Assembly (NCBI RefSeq): GCF_030503435.1 | Contig: NZ_JAUKPO010000006.1 | Location: 186,001-250,000, forward strand | Source: Rhodocytophaga aerolata | GTDB taxonomy: Bacteria > Bacteroidota > Bacteroidia > Cytophagales > 172606-1 | Direction: 5' to 3' | Length of the DNA stretch: 64,000 bases | Part shown: positions 13,330 to 29,955 of the stretch, in pieces | Position numbering within the stretch: the stretch's first letter is position 1 | Layout: every line of letters starts with the position of its first letter | Program-made: the position numbers and the translations under genes | Notes under the pieces: model-generated | Told to the model about the DNA's origin: nothing | Databases searched by the model: none | Seen by the model: the letters and a program-made list of their open reading frames with translations, nothing else

Positions 13330-13353
13330 CCTGAGACAAAGCTTTGGCTCAGG
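13330..13353. other. Palindromic hairpin at the 3' end of the kinase gene
   Basis: A 24-bp palindrome (CCTGAG, one mismatch, CAAAG, CTTTG, one mismatch, CTCAGG) overlaps the stop codon of the histidine kinase gene, in the gap between converging genes. There is no U-run on either side, so it may stabilise the mRNA 3' end rather than terminate it. Confidence 0.45.
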
Positions 13354-14707
13354 CCGGAAAAAGTAATTTGAAAATAGTGCCTTCCCCCTTCGTAGATTGA
13401 ACGGTAATATTCCCTTTGTGCAGCAACATAATCTGCTTGGATAAGCTAAGCCCGATACCAGACCCCTTCTTTTTCGTGGTAAAAAATGGCACAAACATCT
13501 GCTGCTCTACCTGCTCATCCATTCCTGTTCCGTTATCTTTTACCTGTAGCACTGTTTGGCCGCTGCTATTGATACTGGCCGTTAGATCAATCGCCGGATT
13601 GGTTTTCAGTTCTACGGCATCTATGGCATTTAATAAAAGATTAATTAATACTTGTTCCACTAATTCAGGATCAGCTGTGAAATGCAAGTTTTCCTGCAAA
13701 AGCAGCATGGTAAATTTTATATGCTTCTTTTCTATCGTAGGACGGAGCAAGGTATATACCCGGGTAAACAACGATGCTACCGGCACCACCTGCATTACTG
13801 GTTTAGCTGTCTGGGTGAAGCTAGAGTAAGCCCTTACAAAATTTACCAAACCCTTACTCCGGTTCTCAATGGTTTGCAGGCTGTTGCGGATTTCTTGTTC
13901 CTCTTCATCATCCTGGTAGATAAGATGCGGATTCCGGATGGCTCTTTCCTGCAACATTTCATTAATTACCGAAGAAAGCGTAGCAATGGGAATAACCGAA
14001 TTCATAATTTCATGGGTAAGCACCCGGATCAACTTTTGCCAAGATTCCACTTCCTGTGCTTCCAGCTCACTGCCAATATCCTGGAAAGACACCAGCTTAT
14101 AGGATTTCTGCCCTAGTTTAAACGCAGTTGCCTGCACCGATAAATGCAATGTGGTACCTTGTTTTGTTATTTTGATAAGTTCTTTCTTTCCTGCGGCTAA
14201 ACTTCGAACGGTTTCCAATAATTGTTTATCAATTTGCTCCAACGCTTTTATGTTCTTGATGTAGGGCTTGCCAAAAAGGGTATAGGCTGCCTCATTCATC
14301 AGCTGTACGTCTTCTGCTTCGTCATAACAAATAAGGGCTACTTTTACATGTTCTACTACGGTCTGTAAATATTGGTGGCCAAATTCTTTTTCGCTTCGTA
14401 AGTGTTGAAATACCTTTAATATCTCGGAGTAAGCTTGTTTTAAGCCATCGTTCGAACCCTTGTTTCGGAGGCTTGGGAATAAAGTAGAAAAATCGCTTTG
14501 CCGGATAGATAATAGGAAGTTCTCCAGGTCTTTATGAGACCGTTCGATGAAATAGATAAGTTCAGAAATAAGCAGGATAATAGCCAGACCTATCCAAAAA
14601 GCTACCAGCCAGAAATGAGTCTGCGTTAGAATATAAAGCATGGCATGGCCCAGTGCCAGTATCAGCAGTATCCGGAAAATGATATGTAAGCGGAATTTTC
14701 TGAACAT
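13349..14707 (-). CDS. NtrY-like membrane sensor histidine kinase
   Basis: 452 residues. Two hydrophobic segments near the N-terminus (about 8-28 and 31-53) leave only a very short periplasmic turn, so the signal is probably sensed in the membrane or cytoplasm. A linker and PAS-like domain (about 95-205) precede the HisKA box RVLTHEIMNSVIPI (phospho-His near 231). The ATPase has an N-box with LINLLLNAIDAVE and a G-box GSGIGLSLSKQIM. The variant HisKA and the match to nitrogen-type kinases fit its neighbour, a sigma-54 response regulator that starts the operon 54 bp upstream. It probably sets the phosphorylation state of that regulator. Confidence 0.9.
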   Translation of the reverse strand: MFRKFRLHIIFRILLILALGHAMLYILTQTHFWLVAFWIGLAIILLISELIYFIERSHKDLENFLLSIRQSDFSTLFPSLRNKGSNDGLKQAYSEILKVFQHLRSEKEFGHQYLQTVVEHVKVALICYDEAEDVQLMNEAAYTLFGKPYIKNIKALEQIDKQLLETVRSLAAGKKELIKITKQGTTLHLSVQATAFKLGQKSYKLVSFQDIGSELEAQEVESWQKLIRVLTHEIMNSVIPIATLSSVINEMLQERAIRNPHLIYQDDEEEQEIRNSLQTIENRSKGLVNFVRAYSSFTQTAKPVMQVVPVASLFTRVYTLLRPTIEKKHIKFTMLLLQENLHFTADPELVEQVLINLLLNAIDAVELKTNPAIDLTASINSSGQTVLQVKDNGTGMDEQVEQQMFVPFFTTKKKGSGIGLSLSKQIMLLHKGNITVQSTKGEGTIFKLLFPA

Positions 14708-14761: not shown

Positions 14762-16135
14762 CTACAACCCATATTTCTCCATTCTCCTATACAAAGTGCT
14801 TCTGCCAAAACCTAACTCTTTAGCTGCTAAAGAAAGATTACCCTGGTGTTTTTTAATTGCCTGTTGAATAGCCGTTTTTTCGATTTCCTCCAGATTATAT
14901 GTCAGGTTCTTTTCATCCAATTTTTTGGAAGGAGCGGTAAGCAGAAACTCATCTAGTGTCAGTTCATAAGAATCACTCATGATTACGGCTCTTTCTATAG
15001 CGTGCTGCAGTTCCCGGATATTTCCCGGCCAGCTATAGTGCTGTAGTTGCTTAATGGTTTCTTTGCTGATGCGCATGCCAGGCTTCCGGTATTTTTGAGC
15101 ATATAGGTTCAGGAAATGTGTAGCCAATACAGGTATATCTTCTGTACGTTCCCGCAAGGGAGGCAACTTAATTTCTACCGTATTGATGCGGTAGAGCAGA
15201 TCTTGCCGGAAAGTGCCGTCGGCAACCATAGCATATACCGATTGATTGGTAGCACATATCAAGCGGATGTCTATTTTAATAAGTTTGTTGGAACCTACCC
15301 GCGTGATTTGCCGGTTTTGCAGAGCAGTCAGTAGTTTAGCTTGTAAAGGCAGAGGCAAATTGCCAATCTCATCCAGAAACAAGGTACCTCCGGAGGCTAT
15401 CTCAAAGCGGCCGGCCCGTTCTTCTTTGGCATCTGTAAAAGCTCCTTTGGCGTGGCCGAAAAGTTCTGATTCAAATAAAGTTTCTGAAATAGCACCTACA
15501 TCCACTTTTATGAAATCTGCATCGTCCCTGGGCGATTGCCTGTAAATGGCCCTGGCTACTAATTCTTTCCCAGTGCCATTCTCCCCTAAGATCAACACAT
15601 TCGCATCGGTGGCGGCTACTTTCTCGATGGTAGCAAATACTTTCTGCATAGAAGCCGATACAGCAATCATTTCCGGAAACTGGCTAGCGGCATCTTCACT
15701 CAATAAGCGTTGCTTATGTTTGAGCTGCTTTACTTCTTTCTTCGATTGGCTTAATTGATATACAGTCAGGACACTCGACAAGAGTTTCTCCTTCTCCCAT
15801 GGTTTTACCAGAAAATCAATAGCTCCCTGCCGCATAGCTGTTACGGCCAGGCCAATATCCCCGTAAGCGGTGTTCATCATGACGTGTGCAGTAGGGTCTA
15901 TTTTCAAGATTTCATTCAGCCAGTGCAAACCTTCCTGTCCGCCGGTTTGCCCATAAGTAAAGTTCATATCCAGAATAATGACATCAAAGGTTTCCTTTTG
16001 CAGGAGTTCGTATATGTTGCCCGGATCAGATTCGGTACGAACGATGGAAAATTGTTTTTTCAAAATCAGGCGGGCTGTGTGCAATACATCTATATCATCA
16101 TCGATAATGAGTATCTTACCAGTAAGTTGAGACAT
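14762..16135 (-). CDS. NtrC-family sigma-54-dependent response regulator
   Basis: 457 residues. Receiver domain with acidic pair DDD near residue 13 and phospho-Asp in IILDMNF near residue 55. AAA+ domain with Walker A GENGTGKE near 183, Walker B GGTLFLDEIG and arginine-finger region FRQDLLYRIN. The sigma-54 contact loop reads GAFTDA (about 229-234) rather than the classical GAFTGA, a variant I recall from other Bacteroidota regulators. The C-terminus is a Fis-type helix-turn-helix ending in RSTLYRRMEKYGL. It is transcribed divergently from the permease array, and the shared region carries dyads that are its likely binding sites. It most probably activates the sigma-54 promoters at 16321 and 29940. 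Confidence 0.93.
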   Translation of the reverse strand: MSQLTGKILIIDDDIDVLHTARLILKKQFSIVRTESDPGNIYELLQKETFDVIILDMNFTYGQTGGQEGLHWLNEILKIDPTAHVMMNTAYGDIGLAVTAMRQGAIDFLVKPWEKEKLLSSVLTVYQLSQSKKEVKQLKHKQRLLSEDAASQFPEMIAVSASMQKVFATIEKVAATDANVLILGENGTGKELVARAIYRQSPRDDADFIKVDVGAISETLFESELFGHAKGAFTDAKEERAGRFEIASGGTLFLDEIGNLPLPLQAKLLTALQNRQITRVGSNKLIKIDIRLICATNQSVYAMVADGTFRQDLLYRINTVEIKLPPLRERTEDIPVLATHFLNLYAQKYRKPGMRISKETIKQLQHYSWPGNIRELQHAIERAVIMSDSYELTLDEFLLTAPSKKLDEKNLTYNLEEIEKTAIQQAIKKHQGNLSLAAKELGFGRSTLYRRMEKYGL

Positions 16136-16153
16136 GAGGAAAGGAGTAGAGAA

Positions 16154-16171
16154 TAATGATTATTGACGAAT
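16154..16171 (-). repeat. Inverted leader repeat, arm next to the regulator gene
   Basis: 18 bp (TAATGATTATTGACGAAT) that is the exact reverse complement of 16424-16441. It ends 18 bp from the regulator start codon, as the other arm ends 12 bp from the permease start codon. Each gene therefore carries the same sequence in its own leader, reading ATTCGTCAATAATCATTA towards the gene. Confidence 0.85.
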
Positions 16172-16216
16172 AACTAGAAATTTGATGTAGACTATTGGGT
16201 GTGAACTAATATACGT

Positions 16217-16237
16217 ATTGTTTCAATCTGATACAAT
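16217..16237. promoter_or_regulatory. Enhancer dyad A1, likely NtrC-type regulator site
   Basis: Dyad ATTGTTTCA-ATC-TGATACAAT; the two 9-bp half-sites agree at 8 of 9 positions. Its centre (16227) lies 23 bp from that of dyad A2. The same half-site TGATACAAT occurs twice in front of the second permease unit. Binding by the neighbouring regulator is inferred. Confidence 0.75.
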
Positions 16238-16239
16238 TT

Positions 16240-16260
16240 TATGTGCCAGGATGAAACATA
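16240..16260. promoter_or_regulatory. Enhancer dyad A2
   Basis: Weaker copy of the dyad, TATGTGCCA-GGA-TGAAACATA, half-sites agreeing at 7 of 9 positions. It keeps the TGT...TCA / TGA...ACA core partly. Its centre (16250) is 73 bp upstream of the GG of the -24 element, the same distance as at the second unit. Confidence 0.65.
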
Positions 16261-16320
16261 AAGCGATAGTAAATTCTGTTGCTATTAATTAATATATTGA
16301 TAATCTGTAGTTTATATTTT

Positions 16321-16336
16321 TGGTATACTTGTTGGA
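16321..16336 (+). promoter_or_regulatory. Sigma-54 promoter of the permease array
   Basis: TGGTATACTTGTTGGA: -24 element with GG at 16322-16323 and -12 element TTGG at 16332-16335, in the correct 12-bp register. It fits TGGYAY-N5-TTGCW except for G in place of C at -12. Transcription would start near 16347, giving a leader of about 107 nt. The match in spacing to the second unit supports it strongly. Confidence 0.7.
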
Positions 16337-16357
16337 TTTCTGGGGCCAGGAGCAGCT

Positions 16358-16390
16358 GGCATTGTGCATGTTAATTTTATGCGCCATGCC
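16358..16390 (+). other. Leader hairpin of the permease array
   Basis: 12-bp stem (16358-16369 with 16379-16390), one mismatch and one G-U pair, 9-nt AT-rich loop. It starts about 11 nt after the predicted transcription start. No U-run follows, so it may protect or regulate the long transcript rather than end it. Confidence 0.5.
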
Positions 16391-16423
16391 CTTTGCATAA
16401 ACCTATATATCCTATACGTATTC

Positions 16424-16441
16424 ATTCGTCAATAATCATTA
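16424..16441 (+). repeat. Inverted leader repeat, arm next to the first permease
   Basis: ATTCGTCAATAATCATTA, exact reverse complement of 16154-16171. Looser versions (CATTAATCATTACTC, CATCAACAGTCATTAA) stand just before the permease start at 21718 and the remnant start at 24213, so this looks like a leader element of the whole gene set. Confidence 0.8.
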
Positions 16442-16453
16442 CTCTTCTCTCAT

Positions 16454-19180
16454 ATGTTCCGCAACCACCTGACCATCGCCTGGCGAAATTTTAGCAAACA
16501 CAAAGCATTTTCATTAACCAATAGCCTGGGCCTGGCAGTTGGCATGGCGGCTTGCTTACTGGTATTGCAGTACGTAGTATTTGAGATGAGCTACGATACC
16601 TTTCATAGCCAGGCTGACCGTATTTACCGGGTAGCTGGCAACCGATATGTAGCCGGACAACTGGATGGGCAGACCGCGCAAAGTTATCATGCGGCTGGCC
16701 CGGCCATGAAAAGAGAGTTTCCTGAAGTAATGCATTATACGAGGCTTAGGCCCTGGTATGGCAATACGATGGTAAGCCATACGGCAGGTATGGAGGCAAG
16801 TTTTCTTCAACCAGTTACTATCCGTACCAAACGGTTTGCCGATTCTACCAAGGTTTCTCTAGCCGGCGATTTTAACGGGTGGAACCCCAACCTCCAACCC
16901 ATGACTAGAGAAGGGGATGAATGGGTTGCCAAGCTTACCCTGACGCCAGGCCGCCACATGTACAAGTTTGTGGTAAATGGCAATTGGCTTACCGATCCGG
17001 ATAATCCTTTGGTTGATACGGCTGATCATGATAACTCTATTTTTATGGTTGCGGAAACAGAAGCTTACAAAAAAGCGGCCCAGGCTTTCCGGGAAGTAAC
17101 TTTTAAAGAAGAAGGTATTTACTTCGCTGATCCTACTTTTTTTAATGTATTCTCTTTTCCATTAACTCAGGGGAATCCGGCTACGGCTCTGATAGGGGCC
17201 AATGCAGTGGTATTATCAGAATCTATGGCCAGGAAGCATTTTGGCAAAGAGAATGCTATGGGGAAGCTCATTTATTTGCAGCAAGGCAACCGGTCTGAGC
17301 CTAAGCTAATAACTGGCATATTTAAAGATGTGCCGGCCAACTCCCACCTTCAAGTTAATTTTTTGCTATCATATAAAGCGCTGGGAATGGAAATGGATAC
17401 AGAATGGCGAGGCTTTCAAACATATACATATCTTTTACTATCTCCACAGGTATCTCCAACTGCGTTGGAAGCAAAGTTTGCTGATTTCATTCAGACATAT
17501 AGGGGCAAAGATCTGGCTGCTGAAAATGCCCGGGAAGAATTGTTTTTACAACCGCTGCAACGCATACATCTGTATTCTGATCTGAGGAATGAAATTAGTG
17601 TAAATAACAGTATCCGCACGATCTACTTCCTCCTGATTATTGCTGCCTTTATTCTGCTACTGGCTTGGGTAAACTATATAAATCTCTCTACGGCGCGTTC
17701 TATCGAAAGAGCCAAAGAAGTAGGGGTCCGTAAAGTAGTGGGAGCCAGCCGCTGGCAGTTGATCCGTCAGTTTTTAACAGAAGCTCTATTGCTAAATACC
17801 ATAGGTGCCATAACGGCTATTACCCTGGTACAACTGGCGATGCCTTATTTCAATGACTTTACCGGTCAGCAAATACAGATTACCTTCTGGAAGAGTTCCT
17901 ACTTCTGGCTGCTATTTATAGGACTATTCATCAGCGGAACCATACTGTCGGGCTTATATCCTGCCTTTGCGCTTTCCTCCTATAAGCCGGTATTGGTAGT
18001 AAAAGGAAAATGGCGGAGTTCGGCTAGTGGTATTCTCCTAAGAAAAGGCCTGGTTATATTCCAGTTTGTCGTTTCTGTATTACTTATAACCGGAACTTTT
18101 GCCGTATTCCGCCAGATACAATTTATGCAAGAGCACGACCTTGGTCTGAATGTGGAGGGTGTGCTAGTGGTAAAAACTCCCTTCATTATAAAAGATTATG
18201 CCCAGTTTGATACTAAACTGGAATTGTTCCGCAATAAAGTCCGGCAATACCCGGCGGTGAAAAATGTAGCTACTACCGATGTAGTTCCTGGGATGGAGAA
18301 TATGTATTCAGATAATGGCATTAAACGGGAAGGAAGCAACGATAACGGCATATCTATGTTCAGCCTCATCTGGGCAGATTATGATTTTGTAAATACCTAT
18401 TCCATCCCTTTACTGGCTGGCCGGGCTTTCTCTAAAGCCTATTCAACAGATAATAAAGGAGCTATTATCAATGAAGCAGCTGCAAAAGCATTAGGCTTTA
18501 AGAACCCGCAAGAAGCTGTAAATAGTAAAATTACGTATGGAAAAGATTTTCCCTATACGGTTATAGGCGTGGTGAAGAACTACCACCAGAAATCGTTGAG
18601 AAGTGATTATGTACCCATGATTTTTATACTGAATCCGAATGCTGGCCGTTGCTTTTCCCTGAAACTGGACATGAAAGATGTACCAACTACCATCAAGGCT
18701 ATTGAAGAAACCTATCAATCTGTTTTTCCTGGTAATCCTTTCGAATACTTTTTCCTGGATGAATTTATTGATTCACAATATAAAGCCGATCGTCATTTCC
18801 GTCGGATATTTACCTTATTTGCTCTGCTGGCTATATTTATCGCCTGCCTGGGTTTGCTGGGTCTCGCCTCCTTTGCTACCATCCAACGCACCAAAGAAAT
18901 AGGCATCCGCAAAGTGATGGGGGCTTCTGTAGACCAGATGATCTACCTGCTCTCCAAAGATTTTATGCAATTGGTGCTAATAGCTAACCTGATTGCCTGG
19001 CCACTGGCTTACTGGAGTATCCGGCAATGGTTGCAAAACTATACCTTCCGGATAGATATAAGTCCCTGGTTGTTTCTGCTTCCTAGTATACTGGTTATTG
19101 TCATTGCCCTACTAACTGTAAGTATGCAAACCATCCGCTCGGCAAAAGCAAATCCTGTAAAAGCCTTACGGTATGAATAA
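16454..19180 (+). CDS. MacB/FtsX-type permease with inserted CBM48 module
   Basis: 908 residues, about 100 longer than its sisters. General plan: one membrane helix near residue 22, a periplasmic MacB_PCD domain, three FtsX helices (from about 385), then a second copy of the same plan with FtsX helices near the C-terminus. The signature RAKEVGVRKVVGAS and its second-half twin RTKEIGIRKVMGAS are present. Residues about 122-204 interrupt the first periplasmic domain with a CBM48/AMPK-type glycan-binding module: SLAGDFNGWNPN, then HMYKFVVNGNWLTDP and a closing NSIFMV. The sister permeases lack this segment. No ATPase or adaptor gene is adjacent. This is the first gene behind the sigma-54 promoter; 51 bp separate it from the next permease. 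Confidence 0.9.
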   Translation: MFRNHLTIAWRNFSKHKAFSLTNSLGLAVGMAACLLVLQYVVFEMSYDTFHSQADRIYRVAGNRYVAGQLDGQTAQSYHAAGPAMKREFPEVMHYTRLRPWYGNTMVSHTAGMEASFLQPVTIRTKRFADSTKVSLAGDFNGWNPNLQPMTREGDEWVAKLTLTPGRHMYKFVVNGNWLTDPDNPLVDTADHDNSIFMVAETEAYKKAAQAFREVTFKEEGIYFADPTFFNVFSFPLTQGNPATALIGANAVVLSESMARKHFGKENAMGKLIYLQQGNRSEPKLITGIFKDVPANSHLQVNFLLSYKALGMEMDTEWRGFQTYTYLLLSPQVSPTALEAKFADFIQTYRGKDLAAENAREELFLQPLQRIHLYSDLRNEISVNNSIRTIYFLLIIAAFILLLAWVNYINLSTARSIERAKEVGVRKVVGASRWQLIRQFLTEALLLNTIGAITAITLVQLAMPYFNDFTGQQIQITFWKSSYFWLLFIGLFISGTILSGLYPAFALSSYKPVLVVKGKWRSSASGILLRKGLVIFQFVVSVLLITGTFAVFRQIQFMQEHDLGLNVEGVLVVKTPFIIKDYAQFDTKLELFRNKVRQYPAVKNVATTDVVPGMENMYSDNGIKREGSNDNGISMFSLIWADYDFVNTYSIPLLAGRAFSKAYSTDNKGAIINEAAAKALGFKNPQEAVNSKITYGKDFPYTVIGVVKNYHQKSLRSDYVPMIFILNPNAGRCFSLKLDMKDVPTTIKAIEETYQSVFPGNPFEYFFLDEFIDSQYKADRHFRRIFTLFALLAIFIACLGLLGLASFATIQRTKEIGIRKVMGASVDQMIYLLSKDFMQLVLIANLIAWPLAYWSIRQWLQNYTFRIDISPWLFLLPSILVIVIALLTVSMQTIRSAKANPVKALRYE

Positions 19181-19231
19181 TGTAACCCGGTAAGCACATA
19201 CTCATTCAGACAGTTCACTAATTATTTTTCT

Positions 19232-21604
19232 ATGCTTCGCAACTACCTTATTATCACCTGGCGAACTTTATTAAAGAGTAAGGTCTTTTCGTTTATTAAC
19301 ATTGTTGGCTTTGCAGCTGGTATAGCCGTTTGCCTGCTCATTTTGCTCTACATTGTAGAAGAAACCCGTTTCGACCGTTTTAATAAGAATTTTCACACCC
19401 TTTACCGGGTAGCCCAAGAGCAAAACCAGTCTGGTATATGGTATAATGTTGGCCGTACGCCTGCACCCTTAGCAACTGCCCTCCAGCAAGACATTCCAGA
19501 AGTGGTGAATGCTACCAGGTTTGCCTTGTGGGGAGATGTGCTGCTGAAATATGGAGACAAACTGATTGAAGAACCTAGCGGAATATATGCCGAAAAGAGC
19601 CTATTTCAAATGTTTGATTTTCCGTTTGTACAAGGCACTTACACTACAGCCTTCACACATCCGCATTCTATTATACTCACCCAACGCTTGGCCAGTAAAT
19701 ACTTCGGCAGCGATAATCCCATAGGCAAGCAAATTCAAATAAATAATCAGTATACATTGGTGGTAACAGGGGTAATTAAAGATATTCCGGCACATTCGCA
19801 TCTGCAGTTTGACTTTGTTATTCCTTTTGAGTTTATCAAAGAGTACGGAACAGATTTAACCAAGTGGGGAGCCAATGCTTTTTATACCTATGTTCAGCTT
19901 TCAGAAGAAGCTACTATAGAAGAGGTACAAGCTAAAATACGGAATTATTTTCACACGAAGCCGGATAGAAATGAGGAGATATTGTACTTACAAGCCCTTA
20001 AAGATATACACTTGTATTCACAATTTGATTTCAATACCGATTTTGGTGTACGGGGCGATATCCGGTATGTCCAATTCTTTTCACTCACGGCTGGTATTGT
20101 ATTGCTGATTGCCATATTCAACTTCATGAATTTGTCTACGGCCAAAGCTACACGCCGAGCTAAGGAAGTAGGCTTACGCAAAGTGGTAGGAGCAGACCGA
20201 AAACAATTAATTTTTCAGTTTTTAGGTGAGTCGCTACTATTTTCGCTGATTGCAGGAATACTTTCGCTTACGGTAGTACAACTAGCTTTGCCTTTTTTTA
20301 ATGAACTAACCGGAAAGCAGCTGACCATCACTACTTTTGACCCCACATACTTGGGGTTATTCAGCGGGCTAATTATTTTAGTTGGCCTTGTGGCGGGTAT
20401 ATATCCTGCCTTTTACCTGTCTGCTTTTTCGCCAGCCAAAGTGCTAAAAGGACAGCCACTTTCGGTTTCAAAAGGGGTTTTTCTCCGGAAAGTATTAGTA
20501 ACAGGGCAGTTTAGCCTGTCTATCATTATGATTATTGGCACCATCCTTATTAACCGCCAGTTGCAGTATATCAGCACAAAAAAGCTAGGCCTTACTAAAG
20601 ATGACCTGGTATATGTAGAGATGAGAGGCCAGTTGAAAGACAACTATTCTCTGGTAAAAAATGAGCTGCTTCAAAATACTGCTATTCAAGCCGTGTCAGG
20701 CACCAACTATTACAGCATGCCATTCAAATGGGTAGGTTCAGATGGAAGCGGAGGAATTGAGTTTCCAGGCAAAAATCCAGATGATCATTTTATGATCCAT
20801 AATTTCCGGGTGCAATACGATTTTATTGAAACACTACAACTGAAGATAAAAGAGGGTAGAAGTTTGTCTGCCAGTATACCCACCGATACAGCCAGCTTCC
20901 TGTTAAATGAAGCCGCTGTGCAGCGAATGGGGCTGACTAATCCTATTGGCCAACCCATTTCTTTTTATGACAAAAAAGGAATAGTTGTGGGTGTTGTCAA
21001 AGACTTTCATTTTACTTCTATGCAAAAAGAGATAGAGCCAGCCCTTATTCATGTAAGCCCTCAGGATATTTCGTATCTGCTTATCCGGATTAAACCAGAA
21101 CATACCAAAACGGCCCTGGCAAGTATAAAAAAAATAGTAGATAACTATAGCCAAGATTACCCAGTAGATTATCATTTTATGGATGATGCGTATGATGCGT
21201 TGTATAAGGCGGAGCAACGGATGAGCTCATTATTTAATGCTTTTGCAATACTGGCCATTGTTGTATCTGGCCTAGGACTATTCGGGTTAGCTTCATTTAT
21301 TACAGCAGGCCGCGCCAGAGAGGTAGGGGTACGCAAAGTTTTGGGTGCTTCGGTTCCGAGCATTCTGCTGCTACTTTCTATGGATTTTATCAAGCTGCTT
21401 TTAGTGGCTAGTTTGCTGGGATGGCCACTGGCATTTTTAGGTTTAAGACAATGGCTGCAGAACTATGCCTTTCAGACAGAAGTAACCGTGTGGCTGTTTG
21501 TTTTGCCTAGCTTGGCTGTTTGCTTATTAAGCATAAGTATCATTAGTTTCCATACATGGAGAGTAGCCCGCGCCAATCCAGCCTATGTACTGCGGAATGA
21601 GTAA
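19232..21604 (+). CDS. MacB/FtsX-type permease
   Basis: 790 residues, the shortest intact copy in the array. First-half FtsX signature RAKEVGLRKVVGAD; second-half signature RAREVGVRKVLGAS. The start MLRNYLIITWRTLLKSK is nearly identical to that of the permease at 21718. It is the most divergent copy in the periplasmic part (for example DRFNKNFHTLYRVAQEQ in place of the YDTFH form). No glycan-binding insert. Co-transcription with the preceding gene is likely from the 51-bp gap. Confidence 0.9.
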   Translation: MLRNYLIITWRTLLKSKVFSFINIVGFAAGIAVCLLILLYIVEETRFDRFNKNFHTLYRVAQEQNQSGIWYNVGRTPAPLATALQQDIPEVVNATRFALWGDVLLKYGDKLIEEPSGIYAEKSLFQMFDFPFVQGTYTTAFTHPHSIILTQRLASKYFGSDNPIGKQIQINNQYTLVVTGVIKDIPAHSHLQFDFVIPFEFIKEYGTDLTKWGANAFYTYVQLSEEATIEEVQAKIRNYFHTKPDRNEEILYLQALKDIHLYSQFDFNTDFGVRGDIRYVQFFSLTAGIVLLIAIFNFMNLSTAKATRRAKEVGLRKVVGADRKQLIFQFLGESLLFSLIAGILSLTVVQLALPFFNELTGKQLTITTFDPTYLGLFSGLIILVGLVAGIYPAFYLSAFSPAKVLKGQPLSVSKGVFLRKVLVTGQFSLSIIMIIGTILINRQLQYISTKKLGLTKDDLVYVEMRGQLKDNYSLVKNELLQNTAIQAVSGTNYYSMPFKWVGSDGSGGIEFPGKNPDDHFMIHNFRVQYDFIETLQLKIKEGRSLSASIPTDTASFLLNEAAVQRMGLTNPIGQPISFYDKKGIVVGVVKDFHFTSMQKEIEPALIHVSPQDISYLLIRIKPEHTKTALASIKKIVDNYSQDYPVDYHFMDDAYDALYKAEQRMSSLFNAFAILAIVVSGLGLFGLASFITAGRAREVGVRKVLGASVPSILLLLSMDFIKLLLVASLLGWPLAFLGLRQWLQNYAFQTEVTVWLFVLPSLAVCLLSISIISFHTWRVARANPAYVLRNE

Positions 21605-21717
21605 AAGTGGCGTGCAGGAGTAGCAAACAGTATTTAAAATTTATACTGCTTCTATACGTGCTGCGAGATACTCCATACAAAATCAATCATTTTTTAACTA
21701 GTCATTAATCATTACTC

Positions 21718-24165
21718 ATGCTTCGTAACTACCTTATTATCACCTGGAGAAACCTACTAAAAAATAAGTTGTTCTCTGCTGTCAATATTACAGGATTGGC
21801 TATTGGGATGGCTGCCTGCTTGCTTATTCTGCAATATGTAAGCTTTGAACTGGGGTATGATAGTTTTCATAAACAGGCTGACCATATTTACCGGATTGAA
21901 TCTGAACATTTTCAGGAAGGTATAGTAACCCAGAAGCGTGGAACTGGTGTGATTGAAATCGGTGATGAACTAAAAAAAACGTTTCCTCAAGTACAGGAAG
22001 TAGTCAGGGTTTCTACCTGGACAGGTGTAGTAACTGCCCCTAGCACAGAAGGTATTTTAACTGCTTATAATGAAGATCAAGTATTGTTTGTTGACGCCTC
22101 TTTCCTGCGAACTTTTTCTTTTCCATTAGTAAATGGCTCACCTGATGTACTGGACGAGCCTCATGCTGTGATAATTACCCAAAGCGCCGCCTTGAAATAT
22201 TTTGGTAAACAAGATCCCATAGGCAGGGAAATTATCATGGAAAACCACAACCAGGGGCATAAATTATCGGGTATTGTAAGAGGGATTTGCCAAGATGCGC
22301 CGCTTCAATCACATTTGCAATTCAACTTCCTGGTTTCGCGCAATACGCCAGGCCAGGCCGGGGGGCCTAAAACCTGGGATGCTTTTACCTATTTGTTAGT
22401 ATCGCCTGGCACTAATACACAGCCATTACAGGATAAATTAGCATCGTTCATTAAAACACATCAAGATGGAGGGACTTCGTCTATTAACTACTTCTTGCAA
22501 CCTTTATCGGCTATTCATTTATATGCTGGCTTAGCCGAAGATATCAGCCGGCAGGGAGATAGCAGGATCGTCTGGTTTCTGGTGTGTATTGCGGTATTAG
22601 TGTTATTTATTGCCTATATTAACTATATCAATCTGTCTACGGCTAAAGCGCTAGAGCGGGCTAAAGAAGTAGGCATCCGGAAAGTAATGGGTTCGATGCG
22701 GATTCATTTGATGAAGCAGTTTTTCCTGGAATCATTGCTGCTAAATTTGCTAGGCTTAATTTTCGCTTTAACCATTGTTCAATTTACTTTGCCTTGGTTT
22801 AAAGAACTTGTAGGAATAGCCATCCCTTTTACCCTTTGGCAGCAATACCCTTTTATACCCATACTCTTGCTATTCACCTTCATTGGCGCTTTGTTATCCG
22901 GGTTTTATCCGGCACTCATACTTTCCGCTTACCAGCCCATGCAAGTATTAAAAGGGCAGTTGTATAAGACAGGGAAAGGCTTACGGTTAAGAAAAGTGCT
23001 CGTATTCTTCCAGTTTGCAGCTTCGCTGGTGCTGACGATTGGTACTTTTGCTGTTTACCGGCAGGTAAGCTACATGCATGCCAAAGATTTGGGAATGAAC
23101 ATAGAACAAACCTTAATTGTAGCAGCTCCTCAAAGCAGGCGCGATAGTCCGGAAGAGGAAAGCAAGTTTCTGCGGAAACTTGCAAACTTTCAGACGCAGG
23201 TACGTACGTATGCGGGTATTAGCAGCTTTACTACGTCTTCTACCATTCCGGGGAAAGAAGTAAGCTGGTATAACCGGATTATCCGGAGACCAGATGCCCC
23301 TGATGAAGAAGTGGTACGCTACCACACACTTGCCATAGGCCCGGAGTTTATTGATCAGTTTGGTATAAAACTTATTGCCGGAGAAAAATTTTCTGTCAAT
23401 AGTGTTAAGAGCGAAAACAGTATAATTCCTATTATGATTAATGCAGCTGCTCTGGCACCCTTAGGTTTTGTTACACCAGCGCAAGCTATTGGGCAAAACA
23501 TTTATTCGCGGAACGGCCGGGGTAGAACTTTCAAACTGGAAATTATAGGCGTACTGCAGGATTTTCATAACCGTTCCTTGAAAGAAAAGCATGAGCCAAT
23601 GATTTTTTACAGCCAGGACGGCTCGAGTATAGAGTATTTTGCAGCGAAAGTAAATCCTGAAAACATTAAGCAAACCGTTCAGCAGCTAGAAACAACGTTC
23701 AAAAATACCTTTCCCAGTAGCCCATTTGAGTACTTCTTCCTGGATGAGTTCTTTAACCGGCAATATCAGCAAGACGAACAATTTGAAAAGGTGTTTTCCT
23801 TTTTCTCAAGCCTTGCTGTATTAGTGGCCTGTATGGGGCTGTTTGGCTTATCTTTATTAACTACCAGGCAGCGTACGAAAGAAATAGGCGTACGCAAAGT
23901 ATTAGGTGCTTCAGTTTATAGTATTCTTTCACTCCTAACAAGCGACTTTATAAAGTTGATTCTGTTGGCCAATGTATTTGCCTGGCCAGTGGCTTACTGG
24001 GGAATTAGCAGGTGGTTAGAGAATTATGCCTTCCGCATAGAAATCAGTGCTTTTCTGTTTATTCTGCCTACCTTACTGATTTTAGTAACAGCTTTGGTAA
24101 CAGTAAGTATACAAACGATGAAAGCGGCCAGAGCTAATCCGGCAAAAGCGCTTAACTATGAGTGA
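21718..24165 (+). CDS. MacB/FtsX-type permease
   Basis: 815 residues, standard two-half layout without an insert. It keeps YDSFHKQADHIYRIE near residue 50, RAKEVGIRKVMGS at the first FtsX domain and RTKEIGVRKVLGAS at the second. The motif SPFEYFFLDEFFNRQY before the last helices is shared with the copies at 16454, 26080 and 30065, which groups these four apart from the 19232 copy. The 113-bp leader ends in CATTAATCATTACTC directly before the ATG. Confidence 0.9.
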   Translation: MLRNYLIITWRNLLKNKLFSAVNITGLAIGMAACLLILQYVSFELGYDSFHKQADHIYRIESEHFQEGIVTQKRGTGVIEIGDELKKTFPQVQEVVRVSTWTGVVTAPSTEGILTAYNEDQVLFVDASFLRTFSFPLVNGSPDVLDEPHAVIITQSAALKYFGKQDPIGREIIMENHNQGHKLSGIVRGICQDAPLQSHLQFNFLVSRNTPGQAGGPKTWDAFTYLLVSPGTNTQPLQDKLASFIKTHQDGGTSSINYFLQPLSAIHLYAGLAEDISRQGDSRIVWFLVCIAVLVLFIAYINYINLSTAKALERAKEVGIRKVMGSMRIHLMKQFFLESLLLNLLGLIFALTIVQFTLPWFKELVGIAIPFTLWQQYPFIPILLLFTFIGALLSGFYPALILSAYQPMQVLKGQLYKTGKGLRLRKVLVFFQFAASLVLTIGTFAVYRQVSYMHAKDLGMNIEQTLIVAAPQSRRDSPEEESKFLRKLANFQTQVRTYAGISSFTTSSTIPGKEVSWYNRIIRRPDAPDEEVVRYHTLAIGPEFIDQFGIKLIAGEKFSVNSVKSENSIIPIMINAAALAPLGFVTPAQAIGQNIYSRNGRGRTFKLEIIGVLQDFHNRSLKEKHEPMIFYSQDGSSIEYFAAKVNPENIKQTVQQLETTFKNTFPSSPFEYFFLDEFFNRQYQQDEQFEKVFSFFSSLAVLVACMGLFGLSLLTTRQRTKEIGVRKVLGASVYSILSLLTSDFIKLILLANVFAWPVAYWGISRWLENYAFRIEISAFLFILPTLLILVTALVTVSIQTMKAARANPAKALNYE

Positions 24166-24212
24166 GGCATGGTATAAAATATTCATTCATCAACAGTCAT
24201 TAATTATAAATT

Positions 24213-24274
24213 ATGCTTCGTACCTATCTCGCAAGTGCCCAGAGAATCCAGTAAATCCCGGTAACCTATGAATA
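24213..24274 (+). pseudogene. Remnant of a deleted permease gene
   Basis: An ATG at 24213 opens MLRTYLASAQRIQ and stops after 13 codons. This matches the start of the sister permeases (MLRNYLFTASRAL at 26080) and is preceded by the same kind of leader. The next 30 bases (24245-24274) match the last codons of the 16454 permease, which encode NPVKALRYE, at 22 of 30 positions with one indel. The simplest reading is a permease gene that lost nearly its whole middle. The 13-codon product is probably not functional, and the C-terminal match could be partly chance. Confidence 0.5.
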
Positions 24275-24279
24275 CTCCC

Positions 24280-24309
24280 TTGAACGGGTGGCAATAAGCG
24301 TTATATTTA
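24280..24309 (+). promoter_or_regulatory. Vegetative promoter before the serine hydrolase gene
   Basis: TTG at 24280-24282, 19-bp spacer, TATATTTA at 24302-24309 (7 of 8 to TAnnTTTG). It starts 5 bp after the permease remnant and could give the hydrolase its own transcript, independent of the sigma-54 unit. The implied leader is only about 12 nt. Confidence 0.4.
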
Positions 24310-24327
24310 GAATAAAACAGATTTTTT

Positions 24328-26043
24328 ATGACAGGTAAAAAGTACGTAAAATGTTTACTACTGCTGCTGTGTACAGGCATTTTTTTGACTAGTTATAGTC
24401 AGCCTACTAGTACAAGCTCTATTAATAAAGCGCAGGTAGCAGCCAAGCTTGAAAAACGAATACCTCAGCTGTTAGATAGTGCTGTTATTCCAGGTATTGC
24501 ACTGGCAGTCATTAGTGAGGGCAAAGTGATCTATACAGGCGGGTATGGGGTAAAGAGTGCAGAAACCAAAGAGAGGGTAACGAATACTACCGTGTTTGAT
24601 GCAGCTTCTTTAAGTAAACCTGTTTTTGCCTATGCTGTGTTGAAATTTGTAGAGTCTGGTTTACTGGAGTTAGACAAACCCTTGTATCAATATTTGCCCT
24701 ATGAGGATATACAGCAGGATAACCGGTACAAGCAAATTACTGCCCGCATGGTGTTGAGTCATTCTAGTGGTTTCCCCAACTGGCGGGGTGGAGATTCGCT
24801 GCGGATTCATTTTGAGCCAGGCAAGCAGTTCCGGTATTCCGGGGAAGGATTTGTGTATTTGCAAAAGGTGATAGAAAAACTTACCGGTAAGGCGCTGAAT
24901 GAAGTAATGGCGGAAAACGTATTTACACCCTTAGGCATGAGCCGGAGTAGCTATGTATGGAAGCCGTTGCTGAATGATGATTTTGCCTTGCCCCACGATG
25001 GTTTTCTGAAGGTGATGGACAAAAACAAACCTCAGCAGGCAAATGCCGCCTATTCTTTGCAAACAACGGCTGGCGATTATGCAAAATTTATAGTAGCCAT
25101 CCTTAATGAGACCGGTCTTAGCAGGCAGACTGTGCAGGCTATGGTGTCCCCTCAGATACAGGTCCCGGAAAAAGCTTTTGATGCTTCCTCCCCTATGTCT
25201 AAATCTATTTCCTGGGGCTTAGGTTTTGGTTTGCAACAAGCTACCGATGGCAGTGCTTTCTGGCATTGGGGCGACAACAATACCTTTAAATGCTATGTGG
25301 TAGCGTATAAGCAAAAGAAAACAGGCGTACTATACTTTACGAATGGCTCTAATGGATTAAGCATTATTAAAGAAATAACCGGGCTAACTGTTGGAGGCGA
25401 GCAACCTGCGGTGGATTTTTTAGCTTACGACAAGTATACCGATCCAGGTATGTTATTCATAAAAAATATTCCCTCTAAAGGGGTAGCAAAAGCGATAGAG
25501 CCATTCTTGAATGCTGCCAGGAAATCTATAATAGCAGAGGAGAAAATGAATGAAATTGGCTATTCTTTGCTGCATGCCAAGAAAGTACAACAAGCCAAAG
25601 AGGTATTCAAATTAAACGTAGAAGCCTATCCTCAGTCGGCTAATGCGTACGATAGTTATGCAGAAGCCTGCCTGATGAATGGCGATTATAAAGCAGCGGC
25701 AGATAATTATCTGAAGTCTTTTGAACTGAACCCTAAAAATGAAGGAGCTAAACAGTTAGCCGATCAATTGCTTGCTCCGGAGTCGCAGAAGGGCAACACT
25801 ACGCTTACTTTGAAAGGTTATCCGCAGGCAAAGCTTATCACCCTGGCAGGCAGTTTTAATAAATGGAATGGATTGCATACCCTGTTTTTCCGCAAAGGCA
25901 ACGAATGGTTATGCAAGGTAGATTTACCTCCGGGAACCTATCAGTACAAACTTGTGGTAGATGGCGAATGGATACTGGACCCTGCTAACAAGGCTACCGC
26001 CACGGAGAATGGCTATACAAATTCTGTATTAGTTGTAAAATAA
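24328..26043 (+). CDS. Secreted class C-type serine hydrolase with TPR and CBM48 tail
   Basis: 571 residues with a signal peptide (about 1-25). The beta-lactamase/D-peptidase fold carries the nucleophile motif SLSK near 94, YSG near 169 and HWGDN near 312 (in the place of KTG). This suggests a D-amino-acid-peptide or ester hydrolase more than a classical beta-lactamase. Residues about 400-480 hold two TPR-like helix pairs (SANAYDSYAEACLMNGDYKAA). The tail, about 490-571, is a CBM48/AMPK glycan-binding module (TLAGSFNKWNG, then QYKLVVDGEW). It sits inside the permease array, after the remnant and 36 bp before the next permease. Confidence 0.88.
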   Translation: MTGKKYVKCLLLLLCTGIFLTSYSQPTSTSSINKAQVAAKLEKRIPQLLDSAVIPGIALAVISEGKVIYTGGYGVKSAETKERVTNTTVFDAASLSKPVFAYAVLKFVESGLLELDKPLYQYLPYEDIQQDNRYKQITARMVLSHSSGFPNWRGGDSLRIHFEPGKQFRYSGEGFVYLQKVIEKLTGKALNEVMAENVFTPLGMSRSSYVWKPLLNDDFALPHDGFLKVMDKNKPQQANAAYSLQTTAGDYAKFIVAILNETGLSRQTVQAMVSPQIQVPEKAFDASSPMSKSISWGLGFGLQQATDGSAFWHWGDNNTFKCYVVAYKQKKTGVLYFTNGSNGLSIIKEITGLTVGGEQPAVDFLAYDKYTDPGMLFIKNIPSKGVAKAIEPFLNAARKSIIAEEKMNEIGYSLLHAKKVQQAKEVFKLNVEAYPQSANAYDSYAEACLMNGDYKAAADNYLKSFELNPKNEGAKQLADQLLAPESQKGNTTLTLKGYPQAKLITLAGSFNKWNGLHTLFFRKGNEWLCKVDLPPGTYQYKLVVDGEWILDPANKATATENGYTNSVLVVK

Positions 26044-26079
26044 GCATTACTTACCTATACTTTAGTCCTTACTCTCTTC

Positions 26080-28515
26080 ATGCTTCGCAATTACCTCTTT
26101 ACTGCTTCCCGGGCTTTGCTGCGTTACAAATCGTTTTCTGTTATTAATGTAACAGGCTTGGCAGTTGGCATGGCGGCTTTTCTGCTGATTGTGCAATACA
26201 TCCGCTACGAACTCACCTACGACGCGTTTCATGAGAAGGGTGAGCGGATATACCGGGTGGGTACTAATTTCTACCGCGAAGGTATACCTGCTCAATATGC
26301 AGCTACCTTTCTGGGACTCGGGCCGGCTATGAAAGCAGATTTTCCGGAAGTAGCGGCCTTTACCAGACTAAGCTTCCGCAGAAGTATTGTATCCTACCAG
26401 AATCAGGCATTCACTGAAGAGAATTTATTCTTTGCAGATGCAGACCTTCTGAACATATTCACCTTACAGATGCAGCAGGGGAGTAATGCACCAGGCTTAC
26501 AAGCTCCTAATGAAATTCTGCTTTCCCAGTCTGCGGCTAAAAAATATTTCGGAAAGGAGCAGGCAGTAGGGAAGGTACTTACCCTAAAAACTCGGTTGCT
26601 GGAGCAGGATGTAACAGTGAAGGGTGTGTTTGCCGATTTGCCCTCTAATTCACATGTCCCTATTGATTTCCTGGTTTCCATACAAACATTGGCAAGCCAT
26701 ATAGGCAACGAACGGTTAAACGGGTGGGATAGTATCGATCATTTCACCTATATCCTGCTGGCTCCCGGCACAGATGTGCCAAACCTACGTGCTAAGCTTC
26801 CCGCTTTTATTGATAAATACTTAGGCAAAGTTTGGAATGAAGGTCCAGGATTGGGTATCGGGCAGAACCGGACTGAGCTTGTGTTGCAACCGCTGCTGGA
26901 TATACACCTGCACTCCGACCTGCAAAATGAAGCAGAGGCCAATGGAAATATAGCTACTGTCCGCCTATTGATGCTGGTGGCCTTTTTTATTCTGCTATTG
27001 GCCTGTATAAATTACGTCAATTTATCTACAGCCCGTGCCTTGGAGCGGGCCAAAGAAGTAGCTGTACGGAAAGTAATTGGAGCCAGCCGTAAGCAGCTAA
27101 GCAGTCAGTTCTTCTTTGAAGCGCTGCTACTAAACTTTGCCGCCCTTTTGCTGGCCTTTACTTTGGTACAACTAGCCGGTCCCTGGCTAAATAAGGTAGC
27201 TGCCAAACCTTTCTATGTGTTCAAATGGCTGGATACAGGTTTGTGGCTTTCCTTGAGTGGAGTATTCTTAGCCGGATCTTTTTTGTCTGGTATGTATCCG
27301 GCTTACCTGCTTTCGTCCTTCAAACCAGTACTGGCCCTTAAAGGAAAAATGCACCAGTCATTCAGTATATTTTCATTCAGACGGATATTGATTATGCTGC
27401 AATTTGTAGTAGCCGTGCTGATGGTGGCCGGAACGTATACTGTTTACAGGCAAATGCAGTTTATGCAGACATCCGACCTGGGTATGAACATAGACCAGCT
27501 GCTGGTAGTAAAAGCTCCTTCGCTGAAAGTAGCCGATTCTGTAGCCGGTAACAAGGCGGCTGTGTTCAAACAAGAGCTTCTTTCGCAGGCTGCCATTGCT
27601 ACCGTTACGGTTTTTTCTTCTGTACCTAACGCCGGTATGTATGGTACCATTGGTGCCGTTGGCAGGGTAGGCACTGTGCCGGCAGAGGTAGGACATATGT
27701 TTCATCATGTACAGGCAGATATTGATTTTATGCGTACTTATGCTATGAAGTTACTGGCCGGCAGGAATTTTACTAAAGACCTGTCTACCGAAAAAAACAG
27801 CCTGATTTTAAGCGAAGCAGCTATAAAAGTATTGGGCTTTCAAAGTCCGGCAGAGGCAGTAAACCAGCGGATACTTTATGAGGGTGAAAAAACTATTATA
27901 GGAGTTATCAAAGATTTTCATCAGTATTCTTTAGCGAAAGAAGTAATCCCTATTATCCTGGAGCTAAGTGCCACCAACGCAAAATACTTCTCTGCTAAAA
28001 TAACTCCCCATCTTCTTCCGCAGACTATAGCATCCATCGAGCAAACCTATAAAAAGCTTTATCCGGACAGCCCTTTTGAGTATTTTTTTATGGACGAACA
28101 TTTTGCCAAGCAATATGAGGCAGACAAGCGGTTTGGATATATTTTTAGCTTATTTTCAGGGATGGCTATTTTTATTGCTTGCCTGGGATTATTTGGACTT
28201 GTTTCCTATGCTTCCATTCAGCGAAATAAAGAAATAGGTGTACGGAAAGTATTAGGTGCGTCTGTTTCTTCTATTTTACTATTACTAGCCAAGGATTTTA
28301 TGAAGCTGGTGTTATGGGCAAACCTAATTGCCTGGCCTATTATCTACTGGAGTATATACACATGGCTTTCCGGGTATGCGTACCATACACCTATTCATGC
28401 AGGTTTTTTTATTATACCTAGCCTGGCAGTTGTACTAATTGCTTTTCTGACTATTTTCTACCAAACTTTAAAATCTGCTAAAGAAAACCCGGTGAAAGCT
28501 TTGAGAGATGAGTAG
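26080..28515 (+). CDS. MacB/FtsX-type permease
   Basis: 811 residues, last gene of the array, ending at a strong terminator. Both FtsX signatures are present (RAKEVAVRKVIGAS and RNKEIGVRKVLGAS), as is SPFEYFFMDEHFAKQY. The periplasmic part has no CBM48 insert although the neighbour hydrolase has one. Starts MLRNYLFTASRALLRYK. The 36-bp gap after the hydrolase suggests a common transcript. Confidence 0.9.
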   Translation: MLRNYLFTASRALLRYKSFSVINVTGLAVGMAAFLLIVQYIRYELTYDAFHEKGERIYRVGTNFYREGIPAQYAATFLGLGPAMKADFPEVAAFTRLSFRRSIVSYQNQAFTEENLFFADADLLNIFTLQMQQGSNAPGLQAPNEILLSQSAAKKYFGKEQAVGKVLTLKTRLLEQDVTVKGVFADLPSNSHVPIDFLVSIQTLASHIGNERLNGWDSIDHFTYILLAPGTDVPNLRAKLPAFIDKYLGKVWNEGPGLGIGQNRTELVLQPLLDIHLHSDLQNEAEANGNIATVRLLMLVAFFILLLACINYVNLSTARALERAKEVAVRKVIGASRKQLSSQFFFEALLLNFAALLLAFTLVQLAGPWLNKVAAKPFYVFKWLDTGLWLSLSGVFLAGSFLSGMYPAYLLSSFKPVLALKGKMHQSFSIFSFRRILIMLQFVVAVLMVAGTYTVYRQMQFMQTSDLGMNIDQLLVVKAPSLKVADSVAGNKAAVFKQELLSQAAIATVTVFSSVPNAGMYGTIGAVGRVGTVPAEVGHMFHHVQADIDFMRTYAMKLLAGRNFTKDLSTEKNSLILSEAAIKVLGFQSPAEAVNQRILYEGEKTIIGVIKDFHQYSLAKEVIPIILELSATNAKYFSAKITPHLLPQTIASIEQTYKKLYPDSPFEYFFMDEHFAKQYEADKRFGYIFSLFSGMAIFIACLGLFGLVSYASIQRNKEIGVRKVLGASVSSILLLLAKDFMKLVLWANLIAWPIIYWSIYTWLSGYAYHTPIHAGFFIIPSLAVVLIAFLTIFYQTLKSAKENPVKALRDE

Positions 28516-28578
28516 AAGAGTGAAATGAATGTACCTAGAAATTCAACAGGCGGGTTTAGTTATAAAATGCTTACAATA

Positions 28579-28611
28579 AAAAAGGCTGCAATAAACACTT
28601 GCAGCCTTTTT
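28579..28611. terminator. Bidirectional rho-independent terminator
   Basis: 12-bp perfect stem (28579-28590 with 28600-28611), 9-nt loop, A-tract and T-tract at the two ends. It closes the permease array on one strand and the manganese catalase gene on the other. Confidence 0.9.
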
Positions 28612-28626
28612 ACAATGGTAGCTTTA

Positions 28627-29529
28627 TTAAAATTTGATACCCATTTTCTTGGCCATATCTATAAACATTTGCGGATCATAATTTTCAGCACCCGGTGAAT
28701 TTAGCTGGGGTTCTTCCTCTAACACAGGCGGTGCAAACGTCTCAGGATGTCCGATTACAAACTCCAATGGCTGACCATCTTCCGGATGTGGACCATTAAA
28801 TATTAGCCCAGCTTGCTGATAGTCTGACTGGCTGAAAGAATAGAGTTTCAGATGCTCTTTGTTTTTCATAAACTGTAATGCTTCCGGAAACGCATCATTC
28901 TTAAGCTCTGGTACAGGCACCAGTTTCCTTACTTCTACACCAGTGAGTTTTTCCAAGGCAACTGCATAGGCAACCACATGCACACCTCCACGAACCAACA
29001 AATAGCCTAACATCTGACGGGCCGTAGGGTCAGAAACCATTTCGTAAACCCGCATTTTGTTAGCTCTGGCACCACACTCCAGGAAGAAGTTATGTAGCAA
29101 ATCCAATTTCAGGTTACCACTGGAAAATACATTTGCCCCAGTCCAGAAGTCACCCATAGAATCCATAGGAAGAGCCGCTTGTCCGCTGGCAATGAAGTGC
29201 CGCGTATTGCGGGCATCTGTGGTGTCAGCCAAAGGCGTTTTAGTTGGATCGGTACCTCTTTTGGAAGTTCCGGTCAGAAGCAAATTAATAGCATAAGAAA
29301 CAGCCTCGATGTGGCCGTATTCTTCAGCCGCAATACTGGCAATCAGATCATAAAATGGCCTAAGCCGGTCGCGGCCTCGGAAATTAAACGATTGAAAGGT
29401 GTAATTCATCAGAGTAGACATTTCTCCGAATTTACCGCCAAGTAATTCTTGAACGGCTGCCGCATCATTTGGCGACGGATTTTTGGGTTTTGGCAGGTCA
29501 ACAGCCAGCCGGTCCATGCGTGAAATCAT
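28627..29529 (-). CDS. Manganese (non-heme) catalase
   Basis: 300 residues of the di-manganese catalase family, which converts hydrogen peroxide to water and oxygen with a Glu/His-ligated Mn pair. The expected ligands are visible: Glu in GKFGEMSTLM (about 36), the EEYGHIE stretch (about 70-76), Glu in FFLECGARANKMR (about 147) and His in GGVHVVAYAVALE (about 180). Residues 1-4 (MISR) may be dispensable; an ATG at 29517 is an alternative start. The gene sits between the two sigma-54 permease units and faces the opposite way, so it is not part of either transcript. There is no signal peptide, so it acts in the cytoplasm. Confidence 0.92.
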   Translation of the reverse strand: MISRMDRLAVDLPKPKNPSPNDAAAVQELLGGKFGEMSTLMNYTFQSFNFRGRDRLRPFYDLIASIAAEEYGHIEAVSYAINLLLTGTSKRGTDPTKTPLADTTDARNTRHFIASGQAALPMDSMGDFWTGANVFSSGNLKLDLLHNFFLECGARANKMRVYEMVSDPTARQMLGYLLVRGGVHVVAYAVALEKLTGVEVRKLVPVPELKNDAFPEALQFMKNKEHLKLYSFSQSDYQQAGLIFNGPHPEDGQPLEFVIGHPETFAPPVLEEEPQLNSPGAENYDPQMFIDMAKKMGIKF

Positions 29530-29835
29530 AGGAAAGTGGTTTGTTTGATTGAGGTGGTTTTAGGAGTATTACTTAATTAAACTTGGGTAAGAGATGCTTT
29601 CGAAAGGTGTACGGCATGGAAAAGAGAAATGTTGGAGGTTTCACCTAAAATATGTGCATTTACTAATTATTTTTTTGTAAGGCTATTTTTAATGCTATAA
29701 AGGAATAGTAGAACTAAAATGGTTTGTTATTTTTTGCAAAAGCCGGTTATGCTACTATACACTTACACGTAGTCTTTAATCAGCCGGCGTAGGATAAACA
29801 ATATTCATTGGGGAGATACGCACAATTTTAAAGGG

Positions 29836-29856
29836 TTTGTTTTACTTTGATACAAT
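29836..29856. promoter_or_regulatory. Enhancer dyad B1
   Basis: TTTGTTTTA-CTT-TGATACAAT. The right half-site is identical to that of dyad A1; the left half agrees at 6 of 9 positions. Centre 29846, 23 bp before the centre of B2. Confidence 0.65.
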
Positions 29857-29858
29857 GC

Positions 29859-29879
29859 GCTGTGTCATTCTGATACAAT
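29859..29879. promoter_or_regulatory. Enhancer dyad B2
   Basis: GCTGTGTCA-TTC-TGATACAAT. Its core, TGTGTCA-N3-TGATACA, differs from that of A1 (TGTTTCA-N3-TGATACA) at one position. Centre 29869, 73 bp from the GG of the -24 element, as in the first unit. Confidence 0.75.
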
Positions 29880-29939
29880 CTCAGCCAAATCTTAGTATGT
29901 TTATATATTAAGCTGCTGATATATAGATAATTGTATACA

Positions 29940-29955
29940 TGGTATTATTCTAGCT
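29940..29955 (+). promoter_or_regulatory. Sigma-54 promoter of the fifth permease
   Basis: TGGTATTATTCTAGCT: -24 GG at 29941-29942, -12 TAGCT at 29951-29955, in the correct register. Five of six positions fit TGGYAY-type and four of five fit TTGCW. The predicted start near 29966 leaves a leader of about 99 nt, close to that of the first unit. Confidence 0.7.

Follow-up and report, generated by a model that had tools for sequence, protein, structure and literature searches.

Paired dyads before sigma-54-type promoters point to a permease regulon of an NtrC-type regulator in Rhodocytophaga aerolata and related genomes

The window, a stretch of 64,000 nucleotides of Rhodocytophaga aerolata DNA, contains genes for a sensor histidine kinase and an NtrC-type response regulator on one strand and two units of MacB/FtsX-type permease genes on the other (Table 1). 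The regulator matched PF00072, PF00158 and PF02954 over cut-off (Sigma54_activat, 4.7e-68) and its recognition helix reads GRSTLYRR. Among the 25 NCBIfam models listed of 74 matched, none was over cut-off for the regulator; the best of those listed was the PEP-CTERM-box response regulator (PrsR) TIGR02915, which aligned near full length at 416.2 bits, short of its curated cut-off of 502.6. The best NCBIfam match of the kinase was AtoS (145.5 of 646 bits). The Pfam domains MacB_PCD and FtsX were over cut-off in all five window permeases and no ABC ATPase domain was found in the nine genes scanned (13.3–32.5 kb). ADOP permeases (TIGR03434) and MacB resemble the window permeases in combining MacB_PCD with FtsX at about 800–900 residues; two of the five window permeases were tested against TIGR03434 and gave 321.4 and 281 bits, below its cut-off of 622.3. 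The glycogen-binding-like AMPK1_CBM domain occurs twice in one gene row, in the first permease and in the serine hydrolase. A manganese-catalase gene (28627–29529, minus strand) lies between the two permease units, and its start is separated from the second dyad pair by 307 bp.

Table 1. Genes and predicted regulatory features around the two window promoters (positions in the window).
Feature	Position	Strand	Basis
Sensor histidine kinase, downstream of regulator, same strand	13349..14707	-	ORF; HATPase_c 5.7e-22
NtrC-type response regulator: receiver, sigma-54 AAA+ with GAFTDA, Fis-type HTH	14762..16135	-	ORF, domains
Promoter 1 dyad 1, ATTGTTTCA-ATC-TGATACAAT	16217..16237	.	direct reading; centre 16227
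Promoter 1 dyad 2, TATGTGCCA-GGA-TGAAACATA	16240..16260	.	direct reading; centre 16250
Promoter 1 sigma-54-like -24/-12 element TGGTATACTTGTTGGA	16321..16336	+	direct reading and consensus score
MacB/FtsX-type duplicated permease, first target; AMPK1_CBM in periplasmic part	16454..19180	+	ORF, domains
Second permease, possibly on the first target's transcript (gene order only)	19232..21604	+	ORF, domains
Third permease, possibly on the first target's transcript	21718..24165	+	ORF, domains
Beta-lactamase-family serine hydrolase, C-terminal AMPK1_CBM, possibly on the first target's transcript	24328..26043	+	ORF, domains
Fourth permease, possibly on the first target's transcript	26080..28515	+	ORF, domains
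Promoter 2 dyad 1, TTTGTTTTA-CTT-TGATACAAT	29836..29856	.	direct reading; centre 29846
Promoter 2 dyad 2, GCTGTGTCA-TTC-TGATACAAT	29859..29879	.	direct reading; centre 29869
Promoter 2 sigma-54-like -24/-12 element TGGTATTATTCTAGCT	29940..29955	+	direct reading and consensus score
MacB/FtsX-type duplicated permease, second target	30065..32488	+	ORF, domains

The first-pass annotation of this DNA had described the same layout of two dyads and a TGGTAT element before both target genes, and the dyad centres proved exact to the base, giving a 23 bp step twice. The GG of TGGTAT, placed 72–73 bp past the second centre, was read at 16322–16323 and 29941–29942, and three right halves carry the half-site TGATACAAT without change, as described; the fourth is TGAAACATA, opposite the left half TATGTGCCA. 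The -12 motif had been given as TTGC but is TTGG in promoter 1 and TAGC in promoter 2. A regulator gene 80 bp from the first pair had also been reported, and its start codon at 16135 lies 82 bp from dyad 1. The pair pattern matched four times in the window, once per strand at each of two places, versus a shuffle mean of 0.11. Sigma-54-dependent promoters are recognized by GG at -24, G or GC at -12 and the proper spacing, and both window elements have this composition. Scored with the canonical consensus, the two promoters reached 14.3 and 14.6, the best values at offsets 50–139 on the gene-facing strand. The own genome contains one PF04552 match (4.9e-57), corresponding to rpoN.

When the 9.07-Mb own genome was searched, paired dyads were found at four places and the backward control pattern at none. 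This pair search had been asked for in the first-pass annotation, and each of the four pairs precedes a MacB/FtsX-type permease gene with a TGG element at an identical offset. The two pairs outside the window (C151:18448-18487 and C159:10710-10749) are each upstream of a MacB/FtsX-type permease of ~800 residues and carry TGGCAT..CTAG at exactly the window offset. The annotation's small regulon of two promoters was supported as a regulon and not in its number, the own genome having at least four such promoters. Two further permease promoters are weaker candidates, one on C158 (gap 5, TGGCGCTAACGTTGCC, 12 bases nearer) and one on C137 (one mismatch, gap 5, 9 bases nearer). Pair and element together were present at six of 48 permease-like ORFs examined, which are a subset of the permeases of this genome and include one CBM-carrying hydrolase; the other 42 were without such a site. 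The own genome gave 129 MacB_PCD domain matches, often two per gene, and so encodes dozens of such permeases. Many MacB/FtsX-type permeases stand in a tandem array at G000:C180:15413-66358, in which no paired dyad with a sigma-54 element was found up to position 27000. The contig of the C159 target carries a transposase-like ORF, judged by eye (L035:2063-2758).

The own genome also encodes three paralogues of the window regulator (57, 54 and 46% identity), each located close to permease or efflux genes and having a TGG element upstream, and the remote sites could belong to one of these rather than to the window regulator. We regard this as very unlikely, since the remote sites agree with the one next to the window regulator, whereas the TGG elements of the paralogues (L036, L037 and L038) are preceded by different dyad-like sequences, for example TGTAACGG.. 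and TGTCCG..CGAACA. These three loci, on contigs C111, C77 and C136 respectively, are paralogous kinase/regulator pairs near permease or MacA-LolD genes. No GAFT was found in the C77 paralogue.

Within the order the paired dyads occurred at 35 places in 21 of 390 genomes with no control hits; the remaining 369 genomes had no match to the window motif. The promoters are not independent events, because two genera give 19 of these 35 places. At the level of the class the pair was found in 6 of 395 genomes (control 0), of which four were new, belonged to one family and had 2, 2, 5 and 10 places. Altogether there were 54 places (35 in the order, 19 further in the class), four of them in the own genome and 50 in related genomes, and 46 of the 54 face a gene of interest (40 permease, 4 MacA, 2 LolD). 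Recurrence before permease or efflux genes had been predicted and was seen at 42 of the 50 further places, again against no control hits. At 19 of the 54 the regulator gene is transcribed divergently. Eight places are without a downstream permease, MacA or LolD gene: L185 adjoins a regulator and lacks a permease, L236 lies close to the end of its contig, L172, L179, L196, L237 and L246 have other or no genes (L196 still with TGGCAC at offset 103), and L195 was taken out by hand. The last had been counted as a LolD place and was dropped (47 to 46) after its match proved to cover 211 residues at 26% identity in an ORF of 549 residues, read by us as ABC-F-like; L238, likewise LolD-named, has a 54% match and was kept. 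At L182 and L183 the downstream permease frame is in pieces, from damage or assembly error. With the dyad gap left free (0–30) and exact matching, nine places were obtained in seven of the 390 order genomes; one of them is a simple tandem array, and the other eight had a gap of 6.

Sigma-54 elements played no part in the motif search, and the distance to the promoter was read separately at the 46 gene-facing places, using the canonical consensus over offsets 50–139. On the gene-facing strand all 46 best matches fell at offsets 91–92 (nine), 101–105 (35) or 114–115 (two), that is 61–62, 71–75 or 84–85 bp past the second dyad centre, the 61–62 and 84–85 classes having been defined after data inspection. 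On the opposite strand the best match was at those offsets in 8 of 46. Mean scores were 14.12 for the gene-facing strand, 11.15 for the opposite strand and 10.76 for shuffled sequence; a score threshold of 9.5 was non-discriminating, being passed by 86% of shuffles. A stricter TGGYRY search found no element around offsets 91 or 102 at 18 of the 47 gene-facing places, several of which carry TGGAA, CGGCA or AGGCA, and was replaced by the consensus scoring. The steps between classes are ~11 bp, with a best-fit period of 11.5 (0.889) versus 10.5 (0.840); the Rayleigh value over these distances assumes independence of related promoters and was not taken as a probability. Single genomes mix the classes, with offsets of 91, 91 and 104 in G074 and from 91 to 115 in G685.

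These distances also bear on whether the dyads bind some other, unrelated regulator such as a repressor, with the TGG elements being chance matches or part of a housekeeping promoter. Binding to the dyads is a prediction, the first pair, 82 bp from the start of the divergent regulator gene, could act on that gene too, and a sigma-70-type scan of 16000–16500 gave three matches, but shuffles gave 2.6. A search blind to sigma-54 has nevertheless put 46 of 46 best sigma-54 matches into three narrow distance classes, a divergent regulator gene accompanies 19 of the places, and the helix variant tracks the half-site (see below), all of which leaves this explanation very improbable. We consider it highly probable that the dyads are tandem enhancers, or upstream activating sequences, of the adjacent NtrC-type regulator, which would activate MacB/FtsX-type permease genes through sigma-54 polymerase. 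Motif, pairing, distances, gene context, regulator domains and the rpoN gene support this sigma-54 enhancer/promoter reading, as first proposed. As a prediction from sequence, a real regulon of the known sigma-54 kind with more than two promoters is well supported.

A further possibility is that the layout was simply inherited, promoter and permease having been duplicated together so that the distances were copied and not selected. The four own targets all belong, as paralogues, to a single permease family, and two genera give 19 of the 35 order places, as this would have it. Aligned without gaps, the 60-bp spacers of the own promoters were 32–42% identical versus 28–32% for shuffles (chance 0.02–0.44 per pair); the spacer of promoter 2 (~30 kb) showed a faint likeness to the C151 and C159 spacers that slightly exceeded shuffles (chance 0.026 and 0.020), but the other four spacer pairs were not above chance at 0.05. 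The own targets are 26–42% identical in protein sequence among themselves, and compared with the four targets of the other genome of this genus one pair, involving the second window target, reached 67% while the rest were at or below 44.2%; for the C151 and C159 targets none was above 33.2%. This low identity, with a single cross-genome pair above 44.2%, and the mixing of distance classes inside G074 and G685 speak against the inherited layout, which we judge unlikely. The first-pass annotation had suggested that distance rather than copied sequence was conserved, and this was supported, with a single pair between the two genomes of the genus as close as 67% and with distances that step by about one turn. 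Most simply, targets would have been recruited independently while the geometry was kept, though a promoter module may have been copied.

To place the window regulator in its family, 66 loci with regulator relatives were compared. At 49% identity or more, 30 of 39 loci had a MacA/MacB-type gene within 6 kb, compared with 1 of 27 among the others. Records among the 30 include Bacteroidetes or Bacteroidales, Cloacimonadota and Acidobacteria, among others; the Ignavibacteriaceae record L085 had no MacA/MacB-type gene within 6 kb. A scan of the 66 loci with window-like half-sites returned five pairs in 1.03 Mb (reversed control 0). The wider family has other half-sites, and we therefore searched for TGT..ACA with free inner bases, in a set of 37 regulators that omits L098 and L099 (no upstream DNA) and L121–L147 (lower identity or partial) and includes L117 (43%). 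An exact TGT-N10/11-ACA pair with a gap of 4–6 was found upstream of 18 of the 37 regulators, against four hits in 3198 random stretches drawn with a 1-kb exclusion around true sites; the other 19 upstream regions were without an exact pair at this gap. Pairs at all other gaps from 0 to 24 numbered four for the same 37 regulators. From the pair to TGG the distance was mainly 53–56, 64–66 or 75–77 bases, with one pair also at 49.

The inner half-site varied with the recognition helix, GRST going with TGTNTC and GRTT with TGTTCC. TC at half-site positions 4–5 was seen in 1 of 48 half-sites for GRST versus 10 of 20 for GRTT, from 12 and 5 regulators that are mutually related; L180, L191 and L185 are absent from this count as the GAFTDA/GAFTGA filter yielded no C-terminus for them. 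Paired by eye, TGTNCG often went with TRTS or TRTA, and TGTTGG or TGTCGG with NRST. The GAFTGA loop of such activators contacts sigma-54. It is replaced by GAFTDA in the window regulator and in 35 of the 37 relatives, the other two being without a GA[FY]T motif. In a second set, selected with the filter that admits GAFTDA or GAFTGA only, 16 of 17 regulators had GAFTDA and L189 had GAFTGA.

Loop variants including GAFTDA have been taken to retain activity (PMC4641369), and enhancer-binding proteins in general are described in PMC7175178. The window system is like the NtrC, NtrX, AtoC and ZraR types in its receiver/AAA+/Fis-type HTH regulator, the palindromes upstream of -24/-12 and the adjacent kinase gene. 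Unlike them, it has a GAFTDA loop, MacB/FtsX-type permeases as targets, constant dyad spacing and turn-like steps in promoter distance. Sigma-54 control of COG0577 FtsX-like permeases in Bacteroidia has been predicted, with a claim to the first such evidence (PMC12316311); target class and sigma factor are shared with the window system, and the portion of that paper available gives no activator, enhancer motif or geometry for permeases. Sigma-54 has been linked to the bacterial exterior in a paper whose main text is without 'Bacteroid' and 'permease' (PMC3162934), and another lists one sigma-54-type regulator in a flavobacterium (PMC9723704). Helical phasing is stated in PMC7408454 as having been shown for an activation loop. 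The control principle is thus known; a description of the window circuit was not found in the literature searched, where titles and abstract openings of open-licence papers, among the best matches of longer lists, did not describe the regulon.

In the mechanism we propose, the adjacent sensor kinase would phosphorylate the window regulator, and two regulator dimers would occupy the two dyads, 23 bp apart, some 120 and 97 bp upstream of the predicted start (~16347 and ~29966). The bound dimers may help to assemble the AAA+ hexamer, which a short DNA loop would carry to sigma-54 polymerase waiting at -24/-12. Because the loop is short, the enhancer would be bound to a given face of the helix and the distance would change by whole turns, evolving to about 61, 72 or 84 bp. 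Further regulators of the subfamily would work in this way on MacA-LolD-MacB or permease operons of their own, where the half-sites differ and the geometry is similar. We lean towards a general form of this proposal, in which a regulator subfamily of Bacteroidota and some other phyla keeps a fixed enhancer grammar (dyad step 22–23 bp, promoter at ~61, 72 or 84 bp), the half-site is rewritten by a few helix residues, and new efflux permeases acquire the module independently. If this is true, the genomes of the subfamily are a natural helical-phasing experiment.

To us the stepped distances are clean natural evidence for helical phasing, and evidence from evolution that sigma-54 activation requires it when the loop is short. 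A specificity code for Fis-type recognition helices could be developed from the correlation between half-site and helix. For the organism itself, the enhancer grammar would assign some of its permeases to one kinase/regulator pair and yield a reporter with which to search for the signal.
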